Part shown: positions 495 to 29,223 of the stretch, piece by piece
How the letters are laid out: every line of letters begins with the position of its first letter
Position numbering within the stretch: the first letter of the stretch is position 1
Assembly: GCA_007127335.1 (NCBI GenBank)
Contig: SKZO01000010.1
Location: 1-35,369 of the forward strand
DNA length: 35,369 bases
Direction: 5' to 3'
DNA from: Spirochaetales bacterium
GTDB lineage: Bacteria > Spirochaetota > Spirochaetia > DSM-27196 > SLST01
Made by a program: the position numbers and the translations under genes
The notes under the pieces: generated by a model
Databases searched by the model: none
What the model saw: only the letters and a program-made list of their open reading frames with translations
Told to the model about the DNA's origin: nothing

Positions 495-3400
495 TCACTT
501 CTTGCGAACCGCGAGGATCGTGAGGTCGTCCGACTGTTGCTCTTCGCGCAGATGCGTGTAGTAGACGTACTCTTTTCGGGGCGACGTCTCCGCGGCGTCC
601 GGGCGTTCCTCCTCCGGCACCTGGTGACCGAAGTAGCGTCGGTATGCGCTGAAATGATCGCGCAGAAACTCGTCGATCTCACGGTCCAAGCGTACCGGCT
701 CATCGACTGACGCGTCGGGAACGAGCCTGAAGACCTTCTCCGCGGCCATGATGGCGAGCACGGTGTTGCGGGCGGTCGGTTCGAGCCCGAGGTAGTCGAA
801 CACGAGCTCCTCGTTCGCATCGTGGTTGCGGACCCGCTTGAGCGTGAACGAGCCTTGCGCCTGGAGCTGCTCGACGATTCTCACCATGCGGGCCGTGGAG
901 AACTCCTCCTTCGCGACGCGGGTATTCCTGTCGATGTCGATGCTCGACGGCGGGTCGAGTGCCTCAGCCTCTTCGGTCAGGCGTGCGGCTTCGTCGTCAT
1001 CCGCCGCGATTGCCTCGAGCTTCTCGTTGCGGATGTACCGGGCCGACTCCTCGATTCCGTCGGTCGCGAGGATCATGATGTCGCCGCCCACGAGACTCAT
1101 GCTGAACTCGGTGTATTCCATACCGGGCGGGAAGATCTCTCGAGAGAACATTCCGGTCGCGGGCGCCTGATTGAGGCTCTGCTCTTCAACCTTCCCCGTC
1201 CCGGCGCGGAAGATACGTTGCTCGGTGTCGCCGCCGTGCGTCAGGCGGACCCTGCCCGAATCGGTATCCACGATCGCGATGGTCATTGCGGCGAACATGC
1301 TCTCGAATCCGCGTTCTACGAGGAGATCGTTGATCGTGTTGACGAGATCGGCAAGCTTCGGCTGCCGGCTCGACTCGCGCCAGTCGCGCACGCGGTTCAG
1401 GAAGATCGTTGCGACCTCGACCATGATGAAGGCCGCGTTTACTCCGTGTCCCGAGACGTCGCACTTGATGAGCGCGAACATCTTCCCGCCCTGCTCGGGC
1501 GGACGGTCGATCCATTCAAAGGTGAAGTAGTCGCCGGAGAGCGCGTCGGCGCCCTCGTAGTAGCCGTGGAACTCGGCGCCCGCCGCGTCGAGGTGCGCCA
1601 TCGTGAGCTTTCGGGTCTTGCCCTGGTCCGTCACCTCGGCGAGCGGGATAAACTTCTTCTGCAGATCCGAGGTGACGATGAGGTCCTTTTCCGCTTCTGC
1701 GGCGGCGGCAAGTGCGACGGTCATCGTGTTGATCGAGTCGGCGAGCCGGTACAGCTCGTCGCGGCTCCTGACCGTGATCGCGTGGTCCTTCAGCGTCGAC
1801 TTGTCCTGCGTGCGGCGGATGAACTCAACGCCCTTGACGAGCTTGTTGATGGGGATGACGACGATCGTGGCGAGGATCAGGGCTCCGGCGATCCCCGCAC
1901 CGACCGCCGCGAGCGCGATGATGACGGTGATCCGGATGATGTCGGCCTGTGCCTGGTCAATCTGCTCCAGGATGAGATCGGTGGCGACCCCGAGTCGAAC
2001 CGTACCCCGGAAATAGGTCAGCGCCTCGAGGTCCGCGTCGTCCATGCGCTCGATCGCCTCGCGGTCGAAGGGGAAGATCGAGATATCCGGGTCGACGACG
2101 ACCTGGTAGAAGAGGAAGTCTCTGACCTGCTGATCGTAGTCCGCAGGATCAAATACCGGGAATGTGCTCACTTGGCTGTCTGCGAGCCCGCTGAACGAGT
2201 CCGAGTCCGCGAGCTCGGCGTAGGCGCGCGTGATGTCCGCCTCGATCTCGTCGATCGAGTCCGGTATCTCGTAATTCGCGCGGGCGACCGCATCGAGCAA
2301 CCGTGCCCGATGGGCCGAGCCATCCCCGCGCTCCGGCTGGCCGGCTTCGAGAATAGCCCGGTGTTCCGCGTGGCGGATAAGGGCGAGCGCATCGACGGTT
2401 ACCTGCTCGAGCGCGGCGTTGATCTGTTGGTTCAAACTCGCGAGGGTCAACTGGGCCCGTTGGCGTTCCTCCTCAGCCTCTGCCGGATCCTCACCCCGCG
2501 CTATCGCCGCGTTGACCTCCTGTCGCAGATCGTTGGAGACCGCGAAGGTGAGCTCCCGCTCGCGTACGAGCGCGTTCAGACGGTCTCCCGCAATCCGGTC
2601 GATGAGGGTCGCGAGGGTCTCGATCTTCTCGCTGACCGGGTCGTCGAGCTGCGTGCGACCGAGATCAAGCGGCGCGTCCTGCGGAATCCCCGTGCGCTCG
2701 ATACCGTGGGCGCCGCGGGAGGAGAGCAGATCCTCGCGGGCTTCCGCGCTCGCGGCTCCCGGCGCGCGCAGACGCGGATCATTGGTGCCCCAGACGTAGT
2801 TGAACCCCTCCGGCAGGTGATCGGTCTGGATCGAGCTCTTGGGCCCGGTGACGGTCGCGTAGAGTGCTTCATCCATGGCCCGCACACCGGCCGGCAGTGC
2901 GTCCAGATCGAGCGTGTTGACGTCCGGGTCGAGCAGCGGCTGTTCGGCGCTGCTGACCATGCTCTCCATCAGAACGTCAACCCGGTCCTGCAGCCCGCGC
3001 AGCAGGACGAGTCGCTGAGTATTGAGGGTCGCAGTTCCGAGCCCGACCGATACCATCCCGACGACGGCCATGACCAGCACGACGACGAAGAAGGCGAACT
3101 TGAACCGCAACCCGATTCCACGTCTACGCATCTCTTGTATCCTTTTTTCCCGCTCTGCAATCAGCCCCGGTTTGCCCGCGATGAGCGCCCGTGCTTCCAG
3201 GCGCAGCTGCACCCCTTCGCGGGCCACGACAGCCAGTCGGGCCCCGGAGAGGATCGCGACCGCGAGCATCAGCGCGATCATCACCCAGACGATCGCCGTT
3301 GTTCCGTCGATCATCCGGATCGCCGGTCGCACCGAGAAGTCGGGCCCGGCTACAATCGTGAAGTCACCGAACTTCACCGTGCCGTTGCGCTCGATTGTCA

Positions 3401-5705
3401 GCCTGATATTGGAGAACTCGATGCCGCGCTCGGTGTGGTAGAGGCCTATGTAGTACTCACCGCTGTCGAGGTTGTCGAGCAGCGGTCCCGACATGCTGCG
3501 GTCGTTGAAGACCCGGAACCCGGGACTCCGACGATCGTAGACATAGTCGTAGGGTGGACGACGGTCGCGATCCACGATCACCCGCTCGATGATCCCATTG
3601 GCCGTGAACCCCCGGCCGAGGATGTTCAGATTGTACCGTCCGAGCGGGTCCGGGATCGCTGCAACGGTGTAGATCTCCGTCACCGGGATGTACTTGTTCA
3701 TCCTGACGAAGAGCACGGCCGGCTCGCCGATGTTCCCCACGCTGTCCACTGCCGTGACCGCGAGCGCGTAGAGCCCGTCGTCGTAGTTCGTGCGGCTGAT
3801 CTCCTGCGCACGCCGCAGTTCGCGGTGCGCAGGAGAGATGATCGGGAGGTCGCGCGGATCGATGTCGGCCCGCTCGTCGTCGATGTAGACGAAGTCCACG
3901 AAATAGCCGCCGATTATGTCGTCATCGGGCGGGTTCCAGCGGAGCGTGAACGTGTTCGACGTCAGAAAGCCGTCTTCGTCGAGCGCGGGGCGCTCGAAGG
4001 TGACCCGACCCGGTGGCGTTGTATCGCGGAAGAACTCCGCGGTTGCGGGTTCCGACCAGTTTCCGGCCCGGTCGACTGCCCGGATCCGAAGGTACCACTC
4101 GCCGTCGTCGTCGGCGTCAAAGGAGGCGCTCGTCGCCGTCGACGGGTCCGGCGGAGTGGGCACGTGGGCATCCGGATCCCGGGTCCAGATGTACGAGTAG
4201 CCGACGATTCCGGAGGCGTCTTCCTGAGCGCTCCACGAGAACCTCGCTACCGACGAGCGGCTGCGTCTGCCGATCTCGAAGTTCTCTCCGCTGACGATCG
4301 GGGGGAGCGCCCGCTGATCGGGCTCGAGATAGACGATTCGGGTGGGCAGCCCCGCCTGGTTTGCCGTCCTGCGGTGCCAGAGAAGATGCAGCCGGTTCGA
4401 TATGACCGAGGCAGCCGGGAATCCTGCGACCCCGAGCGACACCTGCGGACTGATGTTCCGCCAACTGTCGTTGCTTCGTTCGTACAGGACGACTCGCCCG
4501 CCGCGGGCCGGGTCCTGGTAGGCGACCACGTATGCCGAGGTCTCGAGAAGCGCGGGAGTCGGTTGGATGTGCGATACTCGCGCATCGGTCCTGCGCAGCG
4601 AGGCCGCGGTGAGGATCTCGATACCGCCGTCCACATTCCCGTAGTGATCGATTCCGGCGACGGCTATCTGCCGGGTTGAATCGGTCGCGAGGCGCAGGCC
4701 CGCCTCGAAGGCGAGCAGGCGTCGGCCACCCCGCTGGGCGATCGCCGGGCGACGCATGACCATATCCTGATAGGTCAGTACGCCGGCGTTCGGGAGCCCG
4801 GCGGAGAGGACTCTCAGGTGTGTATGCGGAATCACCAGCCCCGCTTCCGCGAGCGCCACTACATCCACGGGATCGTGCGTCGGGATGCCCGCGACCTCGC
4901 GATAGGATTCACCGGTCGCAGGATCGGTAGCCGACCACGTTTCTCCCCGGTTGTCGGTATGGATGGCGTAGAGCTGAGGCGTATCGGCGATATCCGGCCG
5001 GCCGGGCTCCACCGCGGGCGGGACGATGTTCTCGCCCACGAAGACGAGAACGTTCCGCGCACCAACACGCAGGTGCGCTACGTCGCTCTGCGTCCCGGTG
5101 TGCAGGATGTCCGCGGGGATCGAGCGAAGCTCGCCCCACGAATCCGCATCGCGAGCGAACGAATAGACGACACGGTTGGACGGCTCGTCGAACCGCTCCA
5201 TCGTCAGCAGCCATCCGCCGCCGGCCGCGGCGAAGGCGCGCGGCGAGACGAGGCTGATGTCGCCGCGGATCGCATGCACCTCGTTGAAGGTGCGCGCCGC
5301 ATCACGAGAGTGAGCGACACGCACAGTCGTGGACGCTTCGGGTTCTGCTGCCGGCTCGAAGTCGACCGTGACGAGCAGAATCTCCCCGTGTTCGTTGACC
5401 GCAATGCTGTAGACCGGCGGTACCGATGAACCCTCGTACCGTATGCCGGAGACGGCGACGAAGGGCTCCGACCAGCTAAGGCCGCCGCGAGTGGTCTGCA
5501 CCATGACGTCGATCGTACCCCGGTCAGGACCTGCTTCGGTGATGCGCTGGTACGCGGCGACGGCGAAGTCTCCGGAACTCACGAGTTGCGGGAACCGGGT
5601 GTTGGCCTCGGTGAACAGTCGCGGGGCCTCGAAATACGACTGTTGCTGTGCCCACGCGGTTCCGGCCAGGAGTGCCATCGCGGCGAGCAGGTACACCTTG
5701 CGCAC
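495..5705 (-). CDS. Membrane receptor with sialidase-like ectodomain, HAMP and SpoIIE/PP2C phosphatase
   Basis: This 1736-residue protein starts with GTG, 9 nt after the stop of the upstream gene, so the two are probably coupled. After a signal peptide (cut near AWA/QQQ) comes a beta-propeller-like region with four degenerate Asp-box (BNR) motifs: TTRGGLSW 71-78, SRDAARTF 133-140, ARDADSW near 184-190 and TDNRGETW 250-257. Next come fibronectin/Ig-like segments (about 480-670) and a possible IPT-like domain (about 675-790). Hydrophobic helices lie near 803-823, 869-890 and 1257-1285, with a second, largely helical extracytoplasmic domain of about 360 residues between the last two. A HAMP domain (about 1277-1335) leads into a SpoIIE-type Ser/Thr phosphatase with all metal-binding motifs: SGDYF (D1392), DVSGHG (D1416), ATDGI (D1549) and DDLTIL at the C-terminus. 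RsbU-like enzymes of this class dephosphorylate anti-sigma-factor antagonists. The substrate and ligand here are unknown. Sialidase activity is not implied, because Asp-boxes are structural. Confidence 0.9.
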   Translation of the reverse strand: MRKVYLLAAMALLAGTAWAQQQSYFEAPRLFTEANTRFPQLVSSGDFAVAAYQRITEAGPDRGTIDVMVQTTRGGLSWSEPFVAVSGIRYEGSSVPPVYSIAVNEHGEILLVTVDFEPAAEPEASTTVRVAHSRDAARTFNEVHAIRGDISLVSPRAFAAAGGGWLLTMERFDEPSNRVVYSFARDADSWGELRSIPADILHTGTQSDVAHLRVGARNVLVFVGENIVPPAVEPGRPDIADTPQLYAIHTDNRGETWSATDPATGESYREVAGIPTHDPVDVVALAEAGLVIPHTHLRVLSAGLPNAGVLTYQDMVMRRPAIAQRGGRRLLAFEAGLRLATDSTRQIAVAGIDHYGNVDGGIEILTAASLRRTDARVSHIQPTPALLETSAYVVAYQDPARGGRVVLYERSNDSWRNISPQVSLGVAGFPAASVISNRLHLLWHRRTANQAGLPTRIVYLEPDQRALPPIVSGENFEIGRRSRSSVARFSWSAQEDASGIVGYSYIWTRDPDAHVPTPPDPSTATSASFDADDDGEWYLRIRAVDRAGNWSEPATAEFFRDTTPPGRVTFERPALDEDGFLTSNTFTLRWNPPDDDIIGGYFVDFVYIDDERADIDPRDLPIISPAHRELRRAQEISRTNYDDGLYALAVTAVDSVGNIGEPAVLFVRMNKYIPVTEIYTVAAIPDPLGRYNLNILGRGFTANGIIERVIVDRDRRPPYDYVYDRRSPGFRVFNDRSMSGPLLDNLDSGEYYIGLYHTERGIEFSNIRLTIERNGTVKFGDFTIVAGPDFSVRPAIRMIDGTTAIVWVMIALMLAVAILSGARLAVVAREGVQLRLEARALIAGKPGLIAEREKRIQEMRRRGIGLRFKFAFFVVVLVMAVVGMVSVGLGTATLNTQRLVLLRGLQDRVDVLMESMVSSAEQPLLDPDVNTLDLDALPAGVRAMDEALYATVTGPKSSIQTDHLPEGFNYVWGTNDPRLRAPGAASAEAREDLLSSRGAHGIERTGIPQDAPLDLGRTQLDDPVSEKIETLATLIDRIAGDRLNALVRERELTFAVSNDLRQEVNAAIARGEDPAEAEEERQRAQLTLASLNQQINAALEQVTVDALALIRHAEHRAILEAGQPERGDGSAHRARLLDAVARANYEIPDSIDEIEADITRAYAELADSDSFSGLADSQVSTFPVFDPADYDQQVRDFLFYQVVVDPDISIFPFDREAIERMDDADLEALTYFRGTVRLGVATDLILEQIDQAQADIIRITVIIALAAVGAGIAGALILATIVVIPINKLVKGVEFIRRTQDKSTLKDHAITVRSRDELYRLADSINTMTVALAAAAEAEKDLIVTSDLQKKFIPLAEVTDQGKTRKLTMAHLDAAGAEFHGYYEGADALSGDYFTFEWIDRPPEQGGKMFALIKCDVSGHGVNAAFIMVEVATIFLNRVRDWRESSRQPKLADLVNTINDLLVERGFESMFAAMTIAIVDTDSGRVRLTHGGDTEQRIFRAGTGKVEEQSLNQAPATGMFSREIFPPGMEYTEFSMSLVGGDIMILATDGIEESARYIRNEKLEAIAADDDEAARLTEEAEALDPPSSIDIDRNTRVAKEEFSTARMVRIVEQLQAQGSFTLKRVRNHDANEELVFDYLGLEPTARNTVLAIMAAEKVFRLVPDASVDEPVRLDREIDEFLRDHFSAYRRYFGHQVPEEERPDAAETSPRKEYVYYTHLREEQQSDDLTILAVRKK

Positions 5706-5714
5706 GCCGCTACC

Positions 5715-8700
5715 CTACTGCCGTCTCAGGCGGCGAATCAAGTCGTTGTGCAGGTTCCGCCACTCAGGGATCAGCATCGGGTCCCGATCGGCGATTGCCT
5801 GGTAGCGTTCGAGCTCCGCGAGCGCGCCGTTGAGATCGCCCTGCTGTACGAGGCGGGTGGCCCGGGTCATGATCGCCTGCTCGGTAGCCGTCGGCGTGCG
5901 GACGGTGGGCAGGTACGACTGGATAAGCCGAATGAGCTGCGTCGCGCGCTCGTATCCCGGGAGAATCGCCGTTACTCGAACGAGCTCCTCGTAGATTTCG
6001 GTCTGCTCCTCCACCGTCATGTTCTCCCAGTCGCCGCGGGCGATCAGGCCGTCGATGATCTCGTCCGCAACCACACGGGGGTTGGGCGGAGCCGGCGGCG
6101 GCGGCGGATTGAGGATCTGCTCGATCGCCTCGAGCAGCGCATCGATTCGGTTCCTGACCGCCGCGCCCACGCCGGGGCGGTCCTCGATGATCTCCTCTAT
6201 CGCGAGGAGTTTCGAGCGAAGCGGAAGGAGATTGTTGAAGACCTCCTCGGAGACATTGACGTTGAGGATGGCCGATTCGACCGCAGCAGCCTCGCCACGC
6301 TGCGCGGTCACCTCGTCGAGCGATCGGTTCACGTACCCGCGTACGATCGCATCCGCCGATCCCTGTCCGGTTTCCAGCTCGAGCCGGATGTCGAGCAGGC
6401 GCGCTTCGGCATTGAGCGGCTGCTCGCCGAGGAAGAATGCGAGGGCGCGTCGCGCGGTACCAAAATCTCCCTCCTGGAAGGCGACTCTTGCCGTATTCAG
6501 TGTTTGACTGAGCCGCTCGAACCCGGGCACCTCTTCGCTGAGCACCTGCAGCTGCTGCGACTGGAGGATGCGGGCGCGACGGAGGAGCGGCGTGATCACC
6601 GGGTTCTGGATCAGCGGATAGACCGTGCTCCAGAGCGCGTCGGCCTCCTCGAGCAGCAGGATCGCCTCGCCGGGGCGCAGGTCCTCACCCGGGGGAGGAT
6701 CGATGAGCGGAACCGCGTCGGCCGCAAGCATGTCGACGCGTGCAAGGACGATGTCCCGCCGGGCATCGTTCAGCCGGACCGAGAGGCGTTCCCTGATCTC
6801 ATCCCATTGACGCTCAATCTCCGGACGGTACCAGTTCTCCAGGCTCGAGGTGAACAGATTGCTCGCGTCCTGTGGATCGTTCGAGCTCAGCAGGTTGTCC
6901 GCCTGATCGAGGAGGAAGCTCGCCTCGAGCACGTTCCCGGCCTCGTTTTCCGTCTGCGCCTCGTCGATCCGTTCGTCGACCTGGGAGACACGCTCGAGCG
7001 CCTGTTGCTCGAGCTCCCGCGCGTCGGCGATCTGGCGAAGCGATTGTTCGAGCAGCGTCACCGCGCGTCGCAGCAGGCCGTCCGCTCGCGTCCCCACGGT
7101 CGAGGCGATCTGGTCGGCCTGCAACGCAACGGCCTGGACCCGGCTGTCGCGCCAGATATGGTCCGGCTCATCGCGCAGCTCCTGCGCGAGTGACGCGGCG
7201 TCGCTCTGAAGCCCTTCGAGCGTGCCTGTAGCGGTGGAGATAACCTGTGTTCCAGCGACGGTGCCGACGAGCGGTCGCAGACGATCGCGCGCCTGCGCCG
7301 AGCGCGGACGGGGCGCATCGGAGATCGGATCCACGGCGGCCAGATCGGCATCCGCCGCATTCACCGTCGTCTGCAGCCCGGCGAGCCGACCGTTGAGCTC
7401 GCCGATCCGTACGTCCGCGACTCGACGGACGATTCCGAGCTCATACTGCCGGGCTCGATCGATCCGTGCGCCGACGTAGGAGGCATGCTGCGGCGCCGCG
7501 TCCGCCACGGGGTTGGTCCCGGCCGGCGCGGCCGACTGCAGGCCGGTGGAGAAGTCCTCCCATTCATCAAGGCGCGCACGCAGCCCCTCGATTCGCTCGC
7601 GCACGGCTTCGCGCTGCGCGCCCAGAGCGGCCAGGTTGTTCTGAGACGCAAGCCGGCTCCCAACGTCATAGGCCGACTGAGCGAGACGCACCACTGCGTC
7701 GAGCTCTCGTGACGAGCCCATGCGAGTGACCGCTTCCAGGAGTTCCGCGCGTATGCCCTCGTCTGCGAGCGAACCCACGGCCTCGGTCAGCGGAGCAAGG
7801 TCCACGGCTCGCACGATATCCTCAGCCCCCGGCATCTCGAGACCAAGAGCTCGCGAGACGTTGAGGATCTCCGCGGCGGTACGGTAGGAGATCACCGCGC
7901 TTTCGAGTGCACGCCTTGTCTCGTCCACGTGGCCGGCCACTGCGACATCGTCGGATGGTGAGGCAGCCGCGGCCCAGTCGAAGCCGAAGAGCGCCGCGGT
8001 GGCGTCGTCGTATCGGCGCTCGCCGAATGCCGTGGTGGCCTCAACGGGACCGTTTGCCACGAAGTCCCAGACGCGCTCCACGGCGTGCAGCACGCCTTCG
8101 GGTCGTCGGACTCCATCGGTACCGGTTCTCCCGAGCACGATGTCGGCCACGAAGCGCACGTGCCAGTTGTACCGGTACTGTTCGTCGATGACCGCCCGTT
8201 CCGCGTTGAACGCCTCGAGGTCCGAGACGGTCTGTGAAGCCTCGAGCACGGTGCGGTACACGTCGGTTATCTGTCGCAGGAGCGGGAGGTAGTCGGCGAT
8301 CTGATCCTGAGCGTCATCGAAGTCGCCGGCTGCGAACGATGCGATCATGAGCGTTGCCTGTGCCTCCGACGGCGCGGCGATCGAGGCGAAGGTCTCCTGC
8401 GGGTCGGAGATCGTTCGACGGCGGATCGTCTCTCGCGCCTCGGCGAAGCGTTCGCCGATCAGCTCGAAGTCGGCCGGATCAAAACTCCCGATCTGCAGGG
8501 CGATGCCGTCGGTCTCGAGCAGCGCTGCGATCCGGGCTTCGCCATCGGTGACCGCACCGTCCACGGTCGGGTCGCTCACCTCGAATCCGTAGTCTCCAAG
8601 CCCGTTGACGTAGATCTCCACGGCACGCACGTAGTTGTCCGACTCCAGCTCCTCGGCGGCCGCGCGCATCATGGTGTCAAAGCGCCGGCGGTCGATCGTG

Positions 8701-9149
8701 AGCAGGACCCGGCTCTGCAGCCCGCTGATCAGCTCGCGTTCCTCGGGATTCGGGAAGGGGAGAATCTCGTTCATCTCGGCGATCAGCCTGAGCGCCTCGA
8801 ACGCCGTTGGAACCACCATCTCCGGCTCGATATCGCCGGCGATGAGCTCGCGCAGTTCCCGCTCGACCTGTCTGCCCTTCTCAACGTATGCCTGTCGCGC
8901 CTCGCGGATCCTGCTGAACCGAGCCTCGGCAGCGGGCAGCTGATCGTCATCGACCTTTACGGCATCGACGAGTCGGGGGATTGCCTCGTCATAGCGCTGT
9001 CCGCGAATGCTCTGGTCCGCCTGCGTGAGACTCTCTTCCGCAGAGGGGAGTTCGCGGTCGGCCGGATCGTCGGACTCCAGCACACCGGTGGCGAACGCCG
9101 GGATCGCGAGGAGCGCGAAGAGAAGTACTGCGATACACAGTCTGAACAC
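5715..9149 (-). CDS. Large secreted alpha-helical (TPR-like) protein, function unknown
   Basis: About 1144 residues, first gene of the minus-strand envelope operon. From the GTG at 9149 it begins MFRLCIAVLLFALLAIPAFA, a compact signal peptide, and AGGA lies 6 nt upstream. An in-frame GTG at 9182 would add 11 residues but has no Shine-Dalgarno sequence, so 9149 is preferred. The mature protein is rich in Ala, Glu, Leu and Arg and reads as many amphipathic helices resembling degenerate tetratricopeptide or coiled-coil repeats, for example near residues 30-80 and in the last 70 residues (GDLNGALAELERYQAIADRDP). A proline run (PPPPPAPP) falls at roughly residue 1015. No catalytic motif is visible. 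It is probably a periplasmic scaffold acting with the downstream receptor-phosphatase. The family assignment is uncertain. Confidence 0.8.
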   Translation of the reverse strand: MFRLCIAVLLFALLAIPAFATGVLESDDPADRELPSAEESLTQADQSIRGQRYDEAIPRLVDAVKVDDDQLPAAEARFSRIREARQAYVEKGRQVERELRELIAGDIEPEMVVPTAFEALRLIAEMNEILPFPNPEERELISGLQSRVLLTIDRRRFDTMMRAAAEELESDNYVRAVEIYVNGLGDYGFEVSDPTVDGAVTDGEARIAALLETDGIALQIGSFDPADFELIGERFAEARETIRRRTISDPQETFASIAAPSEAQATLMIASFAAGDFDDAQDQIADYLPLLRQITDVYRTVLEASQTVSDLEAFNAERAVIDEQYRYNWHVRFVADIVLGRTGTDGVRRPEGVLHAVERVWDFVANGPVEATTAFGERRYDDATAALFGFDWAAAASPSDDVAVAGHVDETRRALESAVISYRTAAEILNVSRALGLEMPGAEDIVRAVDLAPLTEAVGSLADEGIRAELLEAVTRMGSSRELDAVVRLAQSAYDVGSRLASQNNLAALGAQREAVRERIEGLRARLDEWEDFSTGLQSAAPAGTNPVADAAPQHASYVGARIDRARQYELGIVRRVADVRIGELNGRLAGLQTTVNAADADLAAVDPISDAPRPRSAQARDRLRPLVGTVAGTQVISTATGTLEGLQSDAASLAQELRDEPDHIWRDSRVQAVALQADQIASTVGTRADGLLRRAVTLLEQSLRQIADARELEQQALERVSQVDERIDEAQTENEAGNVLEASFLLDQADNLLSSNDPQDASNLFTSSLENWYRPEIERQWDEIRERLSVRLNDARRDIVLARVDMLAADAVPLIDPPPGEDLRPGEAILLLEEADALWSTVYPLIQNPVITPLLRRARILQSQQLQVLSEEVPGFERLSQTLNTARVAFQEGDFGTARRALAFFLGEQPLNAEARLLDIRLELETGQGSADAIVRGYVNRSLDEVTAQRGEAAAVESAILNVNVSEEVFNNLLPLRSKLLAIEEIIEDRPGVGAAVRNRIDALLEAIEQILNPPPPPAPPNPRVVADEIIDGLIARGDWENMTVEEQTEIYEELVRVTAILPGYERATQLIRLIQSYLPTVRTPTATEQAIMTRATRLVQQGDLNGALAELERYQAIADRDPMLIPEWRNLHNDLIRRLRRQ

Positions 9150-9188
9150 GACTATTCCTGGACCGAGCAGAGCTCCCCTCACCTCTAG

Positions 9189-9217
9189 ATACTACTACAG
9201 GTATCGACAAAATCCAC
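9189..9217 (-). promoter_or_regulatory. Possible promoter of the envelope operon
   Basis: On the minus strand a TAGTAT -10-like box (9189-9194) lies 16-17 nt from a weak TGGATT/GTGGAT -35-like box. Predicted transcription would start near 9182, giving a leader of about 33 nt that carries AGGA before the GTG at 9149. It is divergent from the promoter of the UPF0164 gene. Confidence 0.3.
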
Positions 9218-9267
9218 TCCCTCGTGGAGCACGACCTGCCCCGGCTTTCGTCCCGCGCCCCGCACGA

Positions 9268-9296
9268 TGGATAAACGGCGAGACTGGAAGTATACT
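9268..9296 (+). promoter_or_regulatory. Promoter of UPF0164 gene, likely leaderless
   Basis: TGGATA (9268-9273), a 17-nt spacer and TATACT (9291-9296). The ATG follows 7 nt after the -10 box, so transcription should start within one base of the start codon. Confidence 0.55.
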
Positions 9297-9303
9297 GGGG
9301 GCG

Positions 9304-10584
9304 ATGGTGCGCCGTTCGGTTCGCGGACACGTTGCGACCTCTGTCCTCGCATGGCTCTTCCTTGCGATTGGGCCGCTGCAGGCCGTCGAGTTCACCGACG
9401 TATACGCCTCGATCGGCGCGGGGGCCGAAGGCCGCATTGACAACGTCGGTCTGACGATATTCCCCACGCTCATCATCCCCGTTGGCGGCCAGTTCGAGGG
9501 CATGGGTCAGGCGTACACCGCGGTCGCCGGCGATGCGAGCTTTTTCGACGCCAACCCTGCGGCCAGCGCGACGCTCGAGTTCACCGAGCTCACGTTCGTG
9601 CACAATAACTGGATCGCGGATACCGCGATAGAGGGACTCGTCTACACCCGACGCATATCCGACTTCGGGCTTGCCGTGGGCGGGAAGTTCCTCCATGTCC
9701 CCTTCACCCGGTACGACACCACGAGCCGCCAGGTAGCCGGTGGCCGATACAGCGAGGGCACCGTCGGGGTCAACGCCTCCTATAACTTCCTGCGTTCATA
9801 CTCGTTCCCCGGAATCGCCGTCGGAACGACGTTGAAGGCCGCGTACCGCCATGTGCCGCAGGAGATCGCGCCGGACCAGTCCGCAGTCGGCTTTGCTGCA
9901 GACATAGGAGTCCTGTCACGATTCGACCTCCTGAAGAGGTTCTCCGCCAGAGCGCCGAACTTTGCCGCCGGCGTGTCGGCGCGCAACTTCGGGCCGCCTG
10001 TAGAAGGCGAGCCTCTGCCATCGCAGATCACTGCCGGCATCGCGTACCGACCCATCAGACCGGTGATCATCGCGACCGACTTCATTCTTCCGGTCTCCTT
10101 CGCGCCCGACGTACCGCCACCGCCTCCCGGCGGCGCGGTTGGGGCCTCCGTCCGCGTGACGCCTTTCTTCTCGGCCCAGACCGGGGTTCTCCTGCGTTGG
10201 GGCGGGTCCCGGGTCTCCATGGGGGCTTCGCTGACTCTCGCGGATCTGAGCGTCGATGTGAACTACAACCTCGACCTCGCGACACAGTTCAGGAATCCTG
10301 ATCGGTTCAGCGTTCAGGCGCGTCTGAACTTCGGCGACGAGGGACGACGCGCGCTGCGCGACCTCGTGGATCAGTACTACCTCGAGGCGTGGCGCGCATC
10401 AGCGGTCGGCAATCTGGAGGTGGCGATCGAATACTCCCAGCGCGCGCTCGAACTCGATCCCACCTTCACGCCGGCCGCTCAGCTGCTCGAGATCAGCCTC
10501 GCTACGCGTCAGCTCCAGCGTGACCTGCGGGCAATCGATCTGGAGAGCCTTGGCGAGATGACCGAGGATGAGCCGCTCTTCTAG
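9304..10584 (+). CDS. UPF0164 family outer-membrane protein (FadL-like)
   Basis: 426 residues from the ATG at 9304. The longer upstream reading frame lacks coding character and covers the divergent promoter. MVRRSVRGHVATSVLAWLFLAIGPLQA is a signal peptide. The mature part has the alternating, aromatic-rich beta-strand pattern of an outer-membrane barrel and the PorV/FadL-type motif GMGQAYTAVAGDASFFDANP at about residues 60-80, as in the Treponema UPF0164 proteins (TP0548, TP0856 and relatives, from memory), which are thought to import long-chain fatty acids or other hydrophobic nutrients. The last 60 or so residues (DQYYLEAWRASAVGNLEVAIEYSQRALELDP) form a TPR-like helical hairpin after the barrel, probably periplasmic. 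It diverges from the large secreted-protein/phosphatase operon, suggesting a functional link. Confidence 0.88.
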   Translation: MVRRSVRGHVATSVLAWLFLAIGPLQAVEFTDVYASIGAGAEGRIDNVGLTIFPTLIIPVGGQFEGMGQAYTAVAGDASFFDANPAASATLEFTELTFVHNNWIADTAIEGLVYTRRISDFGLAVGGKFLHVPFTRYDTTSRQVAGGRYSEGTVGVNASYNFLRSYSFPGIAVGTTLKAAYRHVPQEIAPDQSAVGFAADIGVLSRFDLLKRFSARAPNFAAGVSARNFGPPVEGEPLPSQITAGIAYRPIRPVIIATDFILPVSFAPDVPPPPPGGAVGASVRVTPFFSAQTGVLLRWGGSRVSMGASLTLADLSVDVNYNLDLATQFRNPDRFSVQARLNFGDEGRRALRDLVDQYYLEAWRASAVGNLEVAIEYSQRALELDPTFTPAAQLLEISLATRQLQRDLRAIDLESLGEMTEDEPLF

Positions 10585-15836: not shown

Positions 15837-18017
15837 ATGGCAAAAACGATCATCGTGTCCAACAGGATGTCCACCTCCGTTTCGCGGAGCGATCACGGCT
15901 TCTCGTTCACTCCGAGCGTCGGAGGGCTTGCGACCGGGCTCTCGTCGCTGCACAAACAGGAGAACAGCCTCTGGATAGGTTGGAGCGGACTCCCGTCGGA
16001 CACGCTGAGCCGTGACGAGCGCGATTCGATCGCGACGACCCTTCGCAAGGACCACAAGAGTATACCTGTGGACCTTTCTACCGACGATCTGGAGTCGTTC
16101 TACTACGGGTTCTGCAACAATATCGTGTGGCCGCTCTTTCACTACTTCCCTACCTACGTGACATACGATGATGAGTACTGGGAGTCATACCGGGAGGTCA
16201 ACGAACGGTTCTTCGAGCGGGTCAAACAGCACCTCGAGCCTGAGGACATCGTCTGGGTGCACGACTATCAACTGATGCTGCTGCCGGCGATGATCAAGGC
16301 GCACGAACCTCACGCACGCGTCGGCTACTTCCTTCATATTCCATTCCCATCGTACGAGGTGTTTCGGCTACTGCCCTGGCGTCAGGAGCTTCTGCGGGGC
16401 CTGCTCGGAGCCGATCTCGTCGGCTTTCACACCTACGACTACGCGCGACACTTTCTCTCGAGCATCAGACGGTTGCTCGGGTACGATCACGATCTCGCCA
16501 ACGTACGATACGAGAACCGGATGGTTCGGGTCGACGTGTTCCCCATGGGGATCGATTACGAGCGGTATGCGAGCTCGATCAACCTGCCGGTCGTCAGGGA
16601 ACAGATCGCCCGGATCGACGCCGATCGGCCGGCCGAACGGATCATCCTCTCGGTCGATCGACTCGATTACACCAAAGGCATTCCGCAGAGACTGCGGGCG
16701 TACGAGCGGTTTCTCGAACGCAACCCTCATTACTCCGGCAAAGTCAGCATGATCATGATCGTCGCGCCTTCGCGAACGGCGGTACCGCAGTACCAGGAGC
16801 TCAGACGTGAGGTCGACGAGCTGGTCAGCGTGATCAATGGACGATTCTCCACGATCGCCTGGACTCCTATCCATTACTTCTACCGGACCTTTCCGTTCGA
16901 GCAGCTGTGCGCCCTCTACTCGGAGGCCGACGTGCTGCTGGTCACCGCCCTGCGTGACGGCATGAACCTGATTGCGAAGGAGTTTATCGCGGCGAAGGGG
17001 GACAGCCCCGGCGTCATCGTCGTCAGCGAGACCGCCGGCGTCGCGCGCGAGCTCAGCGAGGCGATCATCGTGAACGCGAGCAGCATCGAGGACATCGCCC
17101 ACGGCCTGGCAACGGCGCTCGACATGCCGTCCGACGAACAGATCGAACGCAACGGCCGGATGCAGGAACGCCTGCGCAGGTATGACATCCACTACTGGGC
17201 GGCGGATTTCGTCGCCAAGCTCGAATCCGCCGTCGCCCATCAGCAGACCTTCCTGAGCAAGCGGTTGGCCGCGGCCACTCGCCACGACGTCGCCAGGGCG
17301 TATTCGACGGCCGCGCGTCGGCTCATCCTGCTCGACTACGACGGCACGCTCCTGCCCTACATGGATCGTCCGGACCGGGCCGTTCCCGACGCCGATCTCA
17401 GGAGACTCGTACAGAGGCTTGCCGCCGACCGGCGGAACGACGTCGTGTTGATCAGCAGCCGCGGTCGGGAGTTCATGACCGAGCACCTTGGCGAGCTGGG
17501 CGCGGGGATGGTTGCGAGCCACGGAGTGTGGATCAGGCGCGCCGGAGAGGAATGGGAACAGCTGGTTCCGGTCGAGCCGGACTGGAAGTCCGAACTGGCG
17601 CCGATCATGGAACTCCATGCGGACCGCACTCCCGGCAGCCGCTTCGAAGACAAGGAGTACGGCCTCGCCTGGCACTATCAGGGCAGTGATCCCGATCTCG
17701 CGTTCATCAGGGTTGCCGAGCTGCGCGATGCGTTGTTGAGCATGTCGGCGAATCACAACGTCACGATTTTCGAGGGGAACCGCGTGCTCGAGGTCAAGAG
17801 CGCCCTTGCCAGCAAATCGCAGGCTGCCGCAAACTGGCACGAACACGCCGATTACGATTTCATCCTCGCGGCCGGCGACGACCAGACGGACGAAGAGCTG
17901 TTCGTCAGCCTGCCGGAACGTGCACACTCGATCCGGATCGGGCTGGGTATGACGAACGCGTCATATTTCCTGGAAAATCCCGGTGAGCTGCGCGGCTTTC
18001 TTGGAGAGCTGTCCTGA
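15837..18017 (+). CDS. Bifunctional trehalose-6-phosphate synthase/phosphatase
   Basis: 726 residues in two fused enzymes. Residues 1 to about 470 are a GT20 trehalose-6-phosphate synthase (OtsA type): VSNR near the N-terminus, GGLATGL (29-35), HDYQLMLLP (about 141-149), VDRLDYTKGIP (about 272-282) and DGMNLIAKE (about 371-379). Residues from about 490 form an HAD-type trehalose-6-phosphate phosphatase (OtsB type): LDYDGTL with the nucleophile near residue 499, and GDDQTDEELF near 680. The protein makes T6P from UDP-glucose (or another NDP-glucose) and glucose-6-phosphate, then dephosphorylates it to trehalose, a compatible solute. Both active sites look intact. The gene stands alone, between the divergent transporter gene and a convergent FAH hydrolase gene. 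Confidence 0.95.
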   Translation: MAKTIIVSNRMSTSVSRSDHGFSFTPSVGGLATGLSSLHKQENSLWIGWSGLPSDTLSRDERDSIATTLRKDHKSIPVDLSTDDLESFYYGFCNNIVWPLFHYFPTYVTYDDEYWESYREVNERFFERVKQHLEPEDIVWVHDYQLMLLPAMIKAHEPHARVGYFLHIPFPSYEVFRLLPWRQELLRGLLGADLVGFHTYDYARHFLSSIRRLLGYDHDLANVRYENRMVRVDVFPMGIDYERYASSINLPVVREQIARIDADRPAERIILSVDRLDYTKGIPQRLRAYERFLERNPHYSGKVSMIMIVAPSRTAVPQYQELRREVDELVSVINGRFSTIAWTPIHYFYRTFPFEQLCALYSEADVLLVTALRDGMNLIAKEFIAAKGDSPGVIVVSETAGVARELSEAIIVNASSIEDIAHGLATALDMPSDEQIERNGRMQERLRRYDIHYWAADFVAKLESAVAHQQTFLSKRLAAATRHDVARAYSTAARRLILLDYDGTLLPYMDRPDRAVPDADLRRLVQRLAADRRNDVVLISSRGREFMTEHLGELGAGMVASHGVWIRRAGEEWEQLVPVEPDWKSELAPIMELHADRTPGSRFEDKEYGLAWHYQGSDPDLAFIRVAELRDALLSMSANHNVTIFEGNRVLEVKSALASKSQAAANWHEHADYDFILAAGDDQTDEELFVSLPERAHSIRIGLGMTNASYFLENPGELRGFLGELS

Positions 18018-24999: not shown

Positions 25000-27033
25000 A
25001 TGCCGCCCAGGAACAACCGCAATATCGGAATCATGGCCCACATTGACGCCGGCAAGACGACGACGACTGAACGGATGCTCTACTACACGGGGCGCAGTCA
25101 TCGTATTGGCGAGGTCGACCGGGGCGATACGATCATGGACTGGATGGTCCAGGAACAGAACCGCGGCATCACCATCACATCGGCCGCCACGACGTGCGTC
25201 TGGAAAGGGACGCAGATCAACATCATTGACACGCCGGGCCACGTCGATTTCACCGCTGAGGTCGAACGGTCTCTGCGGGTGCTCGACGGAGCCGTCGCCA
25301 TATTCTGTGCGGTAGGAGGCGTTGAGCCGCAGTCGGAAACCGTCTGGCGTCAGGCGAACAGCTATGAGATCCCGCGGATCGCGTACATCAACAAGATGGA
25401 TCGTATAGGGGCCGACTTCGAGGCGGTCCTGGTCGAGATGCGCAAGAAGCTCGCGGCAAATCCTCTCGCGGTCCAGATACCGATCGGCCGGGAGAACTCT
25501 TTCGAAGCGGTGATCGATCTTCGCACGATGGAGGAGATACACTGGTTGCCGGACAAGCAGGGTGCCGATCTCACGCGAAGCCCGGTCCGGGGCGAGTTGC
25601 TCGATCAGGCGCGCGCGTGGCGGGAGAAACTCCTTGACGAGCTCAGTCGTCATTCCGACGAGATGACCGAGCTCATTCTCGAAGGCGCGGATATCCCCGT
25701 GACGCTGATCGACGCGACGATCCGGGAACAGACGATGGCGCGCTCCATCGTTCCGGTGTTCACCGGAGCGAGCCTGCGCAACATTGGCGTGCAGCCGCTG
25801 CTCGACGCGGTCGTCGCCTACCTTCCCGCTCCCGATGAGCTGCCGCCAATCGTGGCGCACCACCTCACGAAGGACAGCGACGTCGAGATCGAACGGTCTG
25901 AGACCGGACCCGATGTCGCGCTCGTCTTCAAGATCCAGACCGAACGTGAAGCAGGCGCGCTGAGCTTCATTCGCGTCTATAGCGGAAAGGTGAAGGCCGG
26001 TTCGGCCGTCATGAACCACAACAAGCGAAAGCGGGAACGAATCAACCGCCTTCTGCGCGTGCATGCCAACCGGACCGAGCAGGTGGACACGCTTCTCGCC
26101 GGAGAGATCGGCGCGATCGTCGGGTTCAAGCTCGCGCAGACCGGAGACACCATAGGCAGTGAGGGCTACCCGGTCATTCTTGAGCGGATGCACTTCCCGG
26201 AGCCGGTGATTCACGTCGCAATAGAGCCGCGAACACTCAGTGAGCGTGATCGTCTGAAGAGCGTTCTGCAGACCCTTTCTCGCGAGGACCCCACCTTTCT
26301 CTCGAAGGAGGACGAGGACACCGGTGAGTTGGTCATCTCCGGGATGGGAGAGCTGCACCTGGATGTCCTGGTCACCCGGGTCATCGACGACTTCCGGGTA
26401 GCCGCCAAAGTCGGGAAGCCGCAGGTGACCTACCGGGAGAGTATCACGCAGACGGTAGAGCACCGGGAACGGTTCTCGCGAATGCTTGCCGGGAAGGAGA
26501 ACAGCGCCGACCTGACACTCAAAGTCGAACCTTTGCCCCGCGGAACCGGGAACACCTTCATCAGCGCGATCCGCAAGGACCTGTTGCCGCAGACGCTTCT
26601 GGATGCGGTCGAGCGCGGAGTCAGGGGGGCGCTCGCCGGAGGCATCATACAGGGTTATCCCGCTTTCGACATAGGCGTCACTCTGACCCATGCAGTGTAC
26701 AGCGAATCCACGTCCACCGAGTTCGCATTTGAGGCGGCGGCGAGCATCTGCCTCGACAACGCGTGTCGGGAGGCCGGTCCCATACTGCTCGAGCCGATCA
26801 TGAAGCTCGACGTCATCGTTCCCAGGGAGTTCATGGGAGATGTCATCACCGGCATCACCATGCGGGGCGGACTGGTCCAGAGCGTCGAGTCGCGCCCGAG
26901 CGCCGAGCATATCCGCGCGTCGGCTCCCCTGGAGAAGATGTTCGGGTACTCCACTGCTCTGCGCTCGGCGACGCAGGGACGAGGGACCTATGCGATGGAG
27001 TTCAGCCATTTCGAGAGCAAGACGACCAGGTAG
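25000..27033 (+). CDS. fusA: Elongation factor G paralogue, EF-G2mt/spdEFG2-like (probable ribosome recycling)
   Basis: 677 residues with a complete GTPase domain: [11 protein letters not shown] (13-23), switch [18 protein letters not shown] with the catalytic-type His, and NKMDRIGAD. Domains II-V follow, ending in [15 protein letters not shown]. The N-terminal half closely resembles human GFM2 (mitochondrial EF-G2), which splits ribosomes during recycling; the spirochaete counterpart (spdEFG2) has been shown to do this in Borrelia. Domain IV is divergent: the KKQSGG loop is replaced by [14 protein letters not shown], and the tip His found in translocases is Ser568. This supports a recycling role rather than translocation. 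It lies directly after tRNA-Val and before the second EF-G. Confidence 0.93.
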
Positions 27034-27141: not shown

Positions 27142-29223
27142 ATGAGTATTTCGACCGATTCGATCCGTAACGTAGCCATTGCCGGCCATGGCACGACCGG
27201 CAAGACAGCCCTCATGGAGTCTATCCTTTACACCGCAGGAGTCATCCCACGGGCCGAATCGGTCGAGAGTGGAAAGACCGTCAGCGATTTCACCGACGAG
27301 GAAGTGTCGAACAACTTCTCGGTTCACACTACCCTCGCCCATCTGTCGTGGCAGGAGAAAAAGATCAACCTTCTCGACACACCCGGCGCGTCCGATTTCG
27401 TGGGCGAGGTCGTCGCCGCCTTTCGCGTGGCAGAGAGCGCGATGGTCGTGGTCGGCGCGAGATCCGGAGTGCAGATAGAGACGATCAAGCTCTGGCGTCG
27501 ACTCGAACAGCGGCAGATGCCCCGATTCGTCTTCATCAACAGAATGGATGAGGAGCGTGCCGACTTTCAGTCCGCGGTAGACGACCTCTCGGAGAAGTTC
27601 GACAAGACGTTCGTTCCCATCGTGATCCCGATCGGTTCCGGTGCGGATTTCAGGGGAGTGGTGAACCTCGTCGAGATGAAGGCGTACCTCGTACCGGAAG
27701 CCGGTCGCGGCGAAGAGCCCGTCGACATTCCGGCAGAGATCCAGCCGGCCGTCGACGAGGCGCGCGAGATTCTCATTGGCGCTGCCGCCGAAGGTGATGA
27801 AGAGCTCGAGATGAAGTACCTCGAGGAAGAGACGCTGGATAACGATGAGGTTCGCCGGGGTCTTGCTCTTGGACTTCGGCACGGAAAGATCGCGCCGGTG
27901 CTGTGTGGATCGGCGACGACGCAGGTAGGCATCGTGTCGCTCCTGAACTTCATCGCGAACAGCGCTCCGAGTCCGGAGGGCGTCACGGACATCACCGTCG
28001 GTGCCGACGGACAGGAGTCATCCATGAGCATCTCTCAGGATGCTCCGTTCAGCGCACTGGTGTTCAAGACGAGCATCGACCAGTTCTCCGGTAAGCTGAG
28101 TTATATCAAGTGTATGTCCGGAGTTCTCAACGGAGACACCGATCTGTACAACGTGCGCGAGCAGAAGAAGGATCGAGCGGGGAAGCTGTATACTGCCGTG
28201 GGGAAGAAGCTTGAAGAGCTGTCGGATATCGTCGCCGGAGACATCGGCGTGATGTCAAAGGTGGCAACGGCTCAGACCAACGATACCTATGCAACGCCGG
28301 ACAACCCGGTCAGCTATCGCGCGCTCCAGCTTCCGCAACCGGTCTACTCCGTCGCGATCGAGGCAGTGAATCGCAAGGACGAGGACAAGCTCGCGCAGAT
28401 GATCTCTCGCATAACAGACGAGGACAAGACCTTCGTCGTGCGCTACAACCCGGAGACCAAGGAAACCGTAGCGAGCGGCATGGGTGAGCTGCATCTCAAC
28501 CTCATCCTGGACAAGATCCGCGAGACGCAGAAGATCGAGGTCAGTACCCGCGTTCCCAAGGTTGCCTACCGGGAGACGATCACGTCCGGTGCTGAGGCTG
28601 AGTACACTCACAAGAAACAGTCCGGCGGGCATGGCCAGTACGGGCGTGTGGTGATCAAGATCCGTTCACTCGATCGAGGTGAGCACTACGCGTTCGAGAA
28701 TCTTATCAAGGGGCAGGCGGTGAGCAAGGGCTACGTCCCCGGGATCGAGAAGGGTCTGCACGAGGCGATGGAATCCGGCGTGCTTGCCGGGTACCCGGTA
28801 GTCGACGTCGGCATCGAGCTTCTCGACGGAAAGGAACACCCGGTCGATTCCTCGGAAATGGCGTTCAAGCTTGCCGCGCGCGGCGCGCTTCGCGATGCGA
28901 TGGCCAAATCGAAGCCAACGCTGCTCGAGCCGATCATGAACCTCAACGTGTTCATCGAGGAACAGTACCTTGGAGACGTGCTCGGGGATCTGTCGGGTCG
29001 GCGAGGTCGCGTTCTCGGTCAGGAACAGCTCGGCGGCGGCATTATCGAGATCAAGGCCCAGGTCCCCCAGGCCGAATTGCTGCGGTATGCGATCGATCTC
29101 CGGTCGATCACCTCCGGAACCGGTGGTTTCGAGCTGGAGTTCGATCACTACAGCCCGATTTCCGGCAAGATCGCCGACGACGTGATCGCGGCCGCCAAGG
29201 CTGCTCAGGAAGCGGAGGAGTAA
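27142..29223 (+). CDS. Elongation factor G-like GTPase, EFG-II type
   Basis: 693 residues with an EF-G domain order. The P-loop is GHGTTGKT (15-22), switch I lacks RGITI (NNFSVHTTL instead), G3 is LLDTPGASDF with Ala83 in place of the catalytic His, and G4 is NRMDEERAD. Domain IV is translocase-like: HKKQSGGHGQYG is present and the tip His566 (GKEHPVDSSEMAF) is kept. The pattern matches the EFG-II group, whose Thermus thermophilus member (EF-G-2) binds ribosomes and supports poly(Phe) synthesis. Its cellular job is not settled. Strong promoter and ribosome site suggest high expression. It forms a tandem with the recycling-type EF-G, and its stop lies 7 nt from the convergent trmB end. Confidence 0.9.
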   Translation: MSISTDSIRNVAIAGHGTTGKTALMESILYTAGVIPRAESVESGKTVSDFTDEEVSNNFSVHTTLAHLSWQEKKINLLDTPGASDFVGEVVAAFRVAESAMVVVGARSGVQIETIKLWRRLEQRQMPRFVFINRMDEERADFQSAVDDLSEKFDKTFVPIVIPIGSGADFRGVVNLVEMKAYLVPEAGRGEEPVDIPAEIQPAVDEAREILIGAAAEGDEELEMKYLEEETLDNDEVRRGLALGLRHGKIAPVLCGSATTQVGIVSLLNFIANSAPSPEGVTDITVGADGQESSMSISQDAPFSALVFKTSIDQFSGKLSYIKCMSGVLNGDTDLYNVREQKKDRAGKLYTAVGKKLEELSDIVAGDIGVMSKVATAQTNDTYATPDNPVSYRALQLPQPVYSVAIEAVNRKDEDKLAQMISRITDEDKTFVVRYNPETKETVASGMGELHLNLILDKIRETQKIEVSTRVPKVAYRETITSGAEAEYTHKKQSGGHGQYGRVVIKIRSLDRGEHYAFENLIKGQAVSKGYVPGIEKGLHEAMESGVLAGYPVVDVGIELLDGKEHPVDSSEMAFKLAARGALRDAMAKSKPTLLEPIMNLNVFIEEQYLGDVLGDLSGRRGRVLGQEQLGGGIIEIKAQVPQAELLRYAIDLRSITSGTGGFELEFDHYSPISGKIADDVIAAAKAAQEAEE

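Follow-up and report, generated by a model that had tools for sequence, protein, structure and literature searches.

A dual-sensor receptor phosphatase of the class Spirochaetia and the gene set inherited and lost with it

A 1736-residue protein (P0001) of a Spirochaetales bacterium joins a sialidase-like propeller and a second, membrane-bounded sensor to one SpoIIE-type phosphatase, and we favour with moderate confidence the reading that it serves, in the inner membrane, as the receptor phosphatase of a signalling system that spans the envelope and is conserved in the class Spirochaetia. Judged from the gene content of the genomes surveyed, genes for a TPR-like protein and a UPF0164 outer-membrane barrel come and go with the propeller half, and a STAS protein accompanies the phosphatase half. 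The architecture itself was already established; the conserved gene set and the pattern of joint loss are new. The gene lies at positions 495..5705 on the minus strand of a 35,369-nucleotide stretch of contig SKZO01000010.1 (assembly GCA_007127335.1), here called the window, and has a GTG start. It was recognized as an open reading frame and through its relatives. As the relatives in the genus, 89% and 85% identical, are full-length and everything lies in one frame, it is a real gene.

All features of the protein are encoded on the minus strand. A signal peptide (residues ~1-19, 5649..5705), visible in the sequence and matched by a hydrophobic N-terminus in relatives, precedes a sialidase-superfamily beta-propeller (residues ~25-446, 4368..5633), which was assigned from an AlphaFold2 model, Foldseek, and the BNR_2 matches and Asp-boxes of relatives. 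The first of two FN3/Ig-like domains (residues ~470-560, 4026..4298) was identified by fn3 and Big_13 matches and by the model, and the second (residues ~586-669, 3699..3950) by model strands and conservation. They are followed by a third beta-sandwich (residues ~677-771, 3393..3677) with model strands and the conserved blocks ‘GRGF’ and ‘DR.G.PYDY’. Hydropathy places the membrane helices TM2 (residues ~803-823, 3237..3299), TM3 (residues ~870-892, 3030..3098) and TM4 (residues ~1258-1281, 1863..1934). Between TM2 and TM3 lies a cytoplasmic loop that is basic by charge count (residues 824-869, 3099..3236), and between TM3 and TM4 a second periplasmic sensor of mixed helical and Cache-like appearance, delimited from the model and alignment gaps (residues ~893-1257, 1935..3029). 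A HAMP domain identified by family matches (residues ~1283-1335, 1701..1859) then leads to a SpoIIE/RsbU-type PP2C phosphatase (residues ~1370-1736, 498..1598), recognized by Pfam, motifs and Foldseek.

In the window protein, the Pfam match to SpoIIE (PF07228) is strong (9.8e-22), and those to BNR_2, fn3, Big_13 and HAMP are all sub-threshold. The same domains are found in 37 full-length relatives (SpoIIE in 37, HAMP in 34, BNR_2 in 31, Big_13 in 30, fn3 in 14), and the weak matches are therefore taken as real. Residues 21-800 and 796-1736 were modelled separately with AlphaFold2 from 37-row alignments, with mean pLDDT values of 79.9 and 82.6. Foldseek searches of the N-terminal half against the PDB returned sialidases and propeller lyases and hydrolases (best E 2.2e-12), with sialidase and polysaccharide-lyase propellers at the top, and short profile matches to solved sialidases were also obtained.

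The three internal helices appear as hydropathy peaks in 37 of 37 relatives, most of which also have the N-terminal hydrophobic signal. The loop between TM2 and TM3 holds 12 K/R and 5 D/E in 46 residues, and its K/R density across the family is 0.23, compared with 0.11 and 0.16 for the segments on either side. This basic loop sets the order as periplasm, membrane helix, cytoplasmic loop, membrane helix, periplasm, membrane helix, cytoplasm. Spirochaetes have two membranes, and the propeller half is anchored in the inner one, so it should face the periplasm rather than the cell surface. An earlier note on this DNA had read the protein from its letters as one phosphatase with two separate extracytoplasmic modules, and hydropathy, loop charge, models and family matches all agree with that reading, as they do with its reading frame, here placed on the minus strand, its propeller, its single membrane helix followed by a basic cytoplasmic stretch, and its HAMP and SpoIIE domains. 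The Ig/FN3 domains it named also stand, whereas the third beta-sandwich, which corresponds to its ‘IPT-like’ domain, has no family match that would confirm this identity. Its second sensor is membrane-bounded as described, but helical only in part, and its description of the propeller module as surface-binding is unlikely, given the periplasmic position.

AlphaFold2 gives the second sensor a mixed alpha/beta fold, and alignment gaps outline a genus-specific helical insert at residues ~1101-1175. The region between TM3 and TM4 matches sCache_3_2 in one of the 37 members (1e-6), and the T. pallidum member has a weak WalK match here; no PDB Cache domain was among the Foldseek matches listed. The module is perhaps Cache-like in its modelled fold. 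The phosphatase carries a complete set of catalytic and metal-binding motifs, SGDY, CDVSGHG, TDG and DDLT, none of which varies more than slightly among 37 relatives. Foldseek matched the C-terminal half to SpoIIE, RsbU (Rv1364c), RssB and the PP2C domain of SiaA (best E 5.3e-9; entries 5ucg, 3ke6 and 3f79, with 6k4e for SiaA). HAMP follows the last membrane helix in 34 of 37 members. The window genome holds one SpoIIE domain. Between the TDG and DD motifs lies an insert of ~100 residues (residues ~1570-1715, window ~561-998, minus strand), which is conserved across the class Spirochaetia; the profile matches of outgroup members end before it.

Relatives of P0001 were found in 56 of 61 kin genomes, and the N-terminal half was matched in 129 of 247 genomes of the phylum. 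In the GTDB collection, 314 relatives were confirmed, and all 80 among the matches listed are from spirochaetes, including Treponema and Gracilinema. By these comparisons, of a kind proposed in the earlier note, the domain order is conserved across the class and represents an established spirochaetal family. A recent gene fusion or an assembly artefact was rejected, the same single reading frame being present in dozens of independent genomes. A T. pallidum-type genome (G100) encodes a 1533-residue member with every domain and 30% identity to P0001 over 1495 aligned residues. We infer that this member is TP0854, with the TPR-like gene upstream as TP0855 and the divergent UPF0164/FadL gene as TP0856. 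Full-length similarity and shared neighbours place P0001 in the TP0854 orthologue group, with the same domain order and the same two neighbours. The window genus differs from TP0854 in extra inserts at residues ~276-316 and ~1101-1175 and in its degenerate Asp-boxes. TP0854 is annotated as a SpoIIE family protein phosphatase (PMC10600179), and its Phyre2 models on sialidases span 17-26% of the protein (PMC5956850); the combination of propeller and phosphatase was thus already visible in print, and a literature search returned no mechanism described for it.

Immediately upstream of the phosphatase gene is a gene for a secreted helical protein of the TPR superfamily (P0002, 1155 residues, 5715..9182, minus strand), whose stop lies 9 bp away. 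Of 87 distinct loci, 86 have such a same-strand gene directly upstream, usually with an overlap of 1-4 bp, and its product is mostly ~1000 residues long where complete. The family is characterized by N-termini resembling signal peptides and by weak matches to TPR, and distant equivalents match TPR strongly. TP0855, its T. pallidum member, appears in the literature as a highly abundant, putative outer-membrane protein (PMC11668736); the helical, TPR-like nature of the family would sit better with a location in the periplasm. Beyond the TPR gene, in the opposite orientation, lies a gene for a UPF0164 (FadL-like) outer-membrane beta-barrel with a C-terminal TPR-like tail (9304..10584, plus strand; PF03687, 5.3e-46, and synteny). 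The mechanical reading frame is 9007..10584, and a start at ~9304 is likelier. A divergent UPF0164 gene occupies this position in 61 of 63 class loci (60 within the set distance and one, L157, just outside it), and in 58 of 59 genomes the UPF0164 and TPR genes adjoin. In T. pallidum, the UPF0164 proteins are FadL-like barrels of the outer membrane and are described with a periplasmic, TPR-bearing helical bundle (PMC8407342); the window neighbour belongs to the same Pfam family and has a similar tail, and there are five copies in T. pallidum against one in the window genome. That paper mentions neither TP0854 nor TP0855, and our literature search found no signalling role proposed for the UPF0164/FadL orthologs.

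On the other side, downstream of the phosphatase gene, the window opens with a secreted protein gene cut by the contig end (1..498, minus strand), similar to a gene of ~330 codons found downstream in near relatives. ParA/MinD, which lies downstream in T. pallidum, was rejected as a conserved neighbour: of 92 fused loci, a single one has it downstream, and it also adjoins one headless gene. Elsewhere in the window, two different elongation factor G genes stand side by side (25000-27033 and 27142-29223, both on the plus strand), and a trehalose-6-phosphate synthase is fused to a trehalose-phosphatase (15837-18017, plus strand).

Evidence on co-inheritance comes from one even draw of 247 genomes of the phylum, at least 90% complete, in which the N-terminal half, the C-terminal half, STAS (present at >=54% identity), UPF0164 and the TPR family were each searched. 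A fused receptor was found in 62 genomes of the class; the TPR gene accompanied it in 62/62, UPF0164 in 59/62 and STAS in 62/62. Six genomes (G212, G214, G249, G252, G266, G277) have only the C-terminal half, in a headless gene of 741-900 codons, and among these TPR was found in 0/6, UPF0164 in 0/6 and STAS in 6/6. The other class genomes in the draw had neither the TPR nor the UPF0164 family at the same match level. Fisher tests of fused against headless genomes gave p values of 9e-9 (TPR) and 8e-7 (UPF0164), uncorrected for phylogeny, and STAS accompanied the phosphatase half in all 68 class genomes of the draw that have it. In a HAMP-PP2C tree, the headless forms nest within the fused clade in at least two places, with L219 grouping with the fused form L109 (support 0.92) and L221 next to the T. 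pallidum member (support 0.99), and are accordingly best read as secondary losses. The independent losses are few: at least two, and probably more.

In other classes, the parts occur as separate genes or fused. In L164 and L166, genes for a propeller/FN3 protein (808 and 817 aa), a TPR protein (649 and 656 aa) and a HAMP-SpoIIE protein (549 and 525 aa) are consecutive, followed by a convergent STAS gene (107-108 aa). G174 and G189 have a TPR-phosphatase-STAS cluster with the propeller gene located elsewhere. In the distant classes, a weaker UPF0164 match lies unlinked to the other genes. In L162 and L163, a fused receptor is followed directly by a STAS gene (135 and 126 aa), whose product is the best match there of the window genome's STAS protein. 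Genes that are linked in one group and fused in another are a classical sign of a shared pathway, and this is how we read the present pattern, although some split genomes, in which the parts are unlinked, speak against it. The fusion of two proteins proposed in the earlier note survives in that the halves are separable, as the six headless and two split forms indicate, and fails as a recent or unusual event, the order being class-wide. Its suggestion of a partner-switching output has gained plausibility, with STAS adjacent in distant relatives and tracking the phosphatase half. In L164, L166, L225 and L226, all from other classes, the phosphatase-linked STAS gene neighbours two genes that, judged by eye, resemble one for a MoxR-type ATPase and a further one for a ~450-aa protein, a possible output module.

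Two STAS proteins, whose identification the earlier note had proposed as a check, are encoded in the window genome (on contigs C327 and C251). They are 70% identical to each other, carry SSTG, a serine motif of the SpoIIAA type, and a C-terminal zinc-ribbon-like segment, and their genes are unlinked to the phosphatase. The C327 protein (L073 1009-1575, minus strand) scores above the cut-off for NCBIfam ant_ant_sig (anti-sigma factor antagonist) and has counterparts of 60-74% identity in most of the class. Its zinc-ribbon-like extension is complete (CPxC...CxxC), which is uncommon among anti-anti-sigma factors. A divergent STAS (51-52% identity) persists in four Treponema genomes that lack the phosphatase, which weakens a rule of no STAS without phosphatase, and G217 has a close STAS and no phosphatase; the link between the two proteins is thus strong but not absolute. 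No anti-sigma kinase or output was found by linkage, and 0 of 26 HATPase_c_2 matches in the window genome were linked; several of the 26 have CBS or cNMP-binding domains and no HisKA. Three proteins of the window genome combine, without HisKA, an RsbW-like GHKL domain with a cNMP-binding or CBS domain (L023 883-2322, L029 1051-2334, L032 937-1869), and CBS-HATPase and cNMP-HATPase proteins are, by their domains, candidate serine kinases. The known systems offer partial parallels. SiaA of the P. aeruginosa SiaABC system (PMC7647112) likewise has two membrane helices, HAMP and a PP2C domain, which acts, as that of P0001 may, on a small phosphorylated partner, SiaC, which is phosphorylated on threonine by SiaB; unlike P0001, it lacks a propeller half, an upstream TPR gene and a linked outer-membrane gene. 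RsbU and SpoIIE of Bacillus (PMC11418112) share the PPM phosphatase fold, the metal motifs and, with STAS as the candidate substrate of P0001, the substrate class. Sensors and topology differ, and in P0001 an insert specific to the class precedes the last PP2C motif.

We propose that the barrel and the TPR protein, taken as functional partners because of the gene neighbourhood, would present the propeller half with a signal, such as a transport state, a condition of the outer membrane or a ligand, to which the second sensor might add further input. A conformational change could then be relayed by the helices and HAMP, reaching the PP2C domain, which would dephosphorylate the STAS protein, and this in turn would free or block a GHKL kinase-type partner and its target.

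Other roles of the propeller have to be weighed against this proposal. An unlikely alternative, close to the reading of the earlier note, is that the propeller is a carbohydrate sensor for glycans or peptidoglycan-type envelope polymers and gates the phosphatase directly, with the TPR and UPF0164 genes present for other reasons. The closest structures are sialidase and polysaccharide-lyase propellers, and a polar site may exist, as E334 and R338 are invariant among 37 relatives and R319 nearly so, so that the ligand could be a glycan. Loss of the propeller half along with the TPR and UPF0164 genes, however, points to protein partners, and Asp-box propellers are also common as protein-binding folds. 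Rather improbable is a mainly structural role, in which the N-terminal half would tether a bridge from the outer membrane through the TPR protein to the inner membrane, the phosphatase being carried along and the second module doing the sensing. The headless phosphatases, which persist with STAS, indicate that sensing by the second module can suffice, but the covalent order of propeller, membrane helix, loop, membrane helix, sensor and HAMP is kept class-wide, and the linking helix and loop block between the halves is well conserved, which together suggest signal transfer. We regard it as very improbable that the propeller actively cleaves sialosides or other glycans, the enzymatic role that the T. 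pallidum literature suggests for TP0854 by fold modelling: the Phyre2 models (PMC5956850) and our Foldseek and profile matches to sialidases speak for it, but one would not expect sialosides in the periplasm, to which the domain is tethered, some of the 37 relatives lack the FRIP-like arginine, and their propeller alignment has no invariant Asp or Tyr, which makes catalysis unlikely. The Asp-boxes are degenerate in the window member, with one to three canonical ones in most relatives. The propeller fold matches that of GH33-type sialidases; strict membership, which also calls for the catalytic Arg triad, Tyr/Glu and Asp, is not claimed. A phage origin of the N-terminal half was rejected after no match was found in 50,697 phage records.

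Returning to the envelope-spanning system, we tentatively suggest, as a possibility that falls short of our preferred conclusion in confidence, that the UPF0164/FadL barrel, the abundant periplasmic TPR-like protein of the TP0855 family and the receptor phosphatase form one trans-envelope complex, which would report the state of the outer membrane or of nutrient import to a STAS partner switch, also in the agent of syphilis. Few signalling routes from the envelope to the interior are known in spirochaetes, and a gene set that is lost together, with a STAS protein as candidate substrate, makes such a route testable. For TP0854, a generic annotation as a ‘sialidase-like virulence protein’ would give way to a signalling hypothesis, one that may also touch the FadL proteins of T. 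pallidum, which are vaccine candidates.
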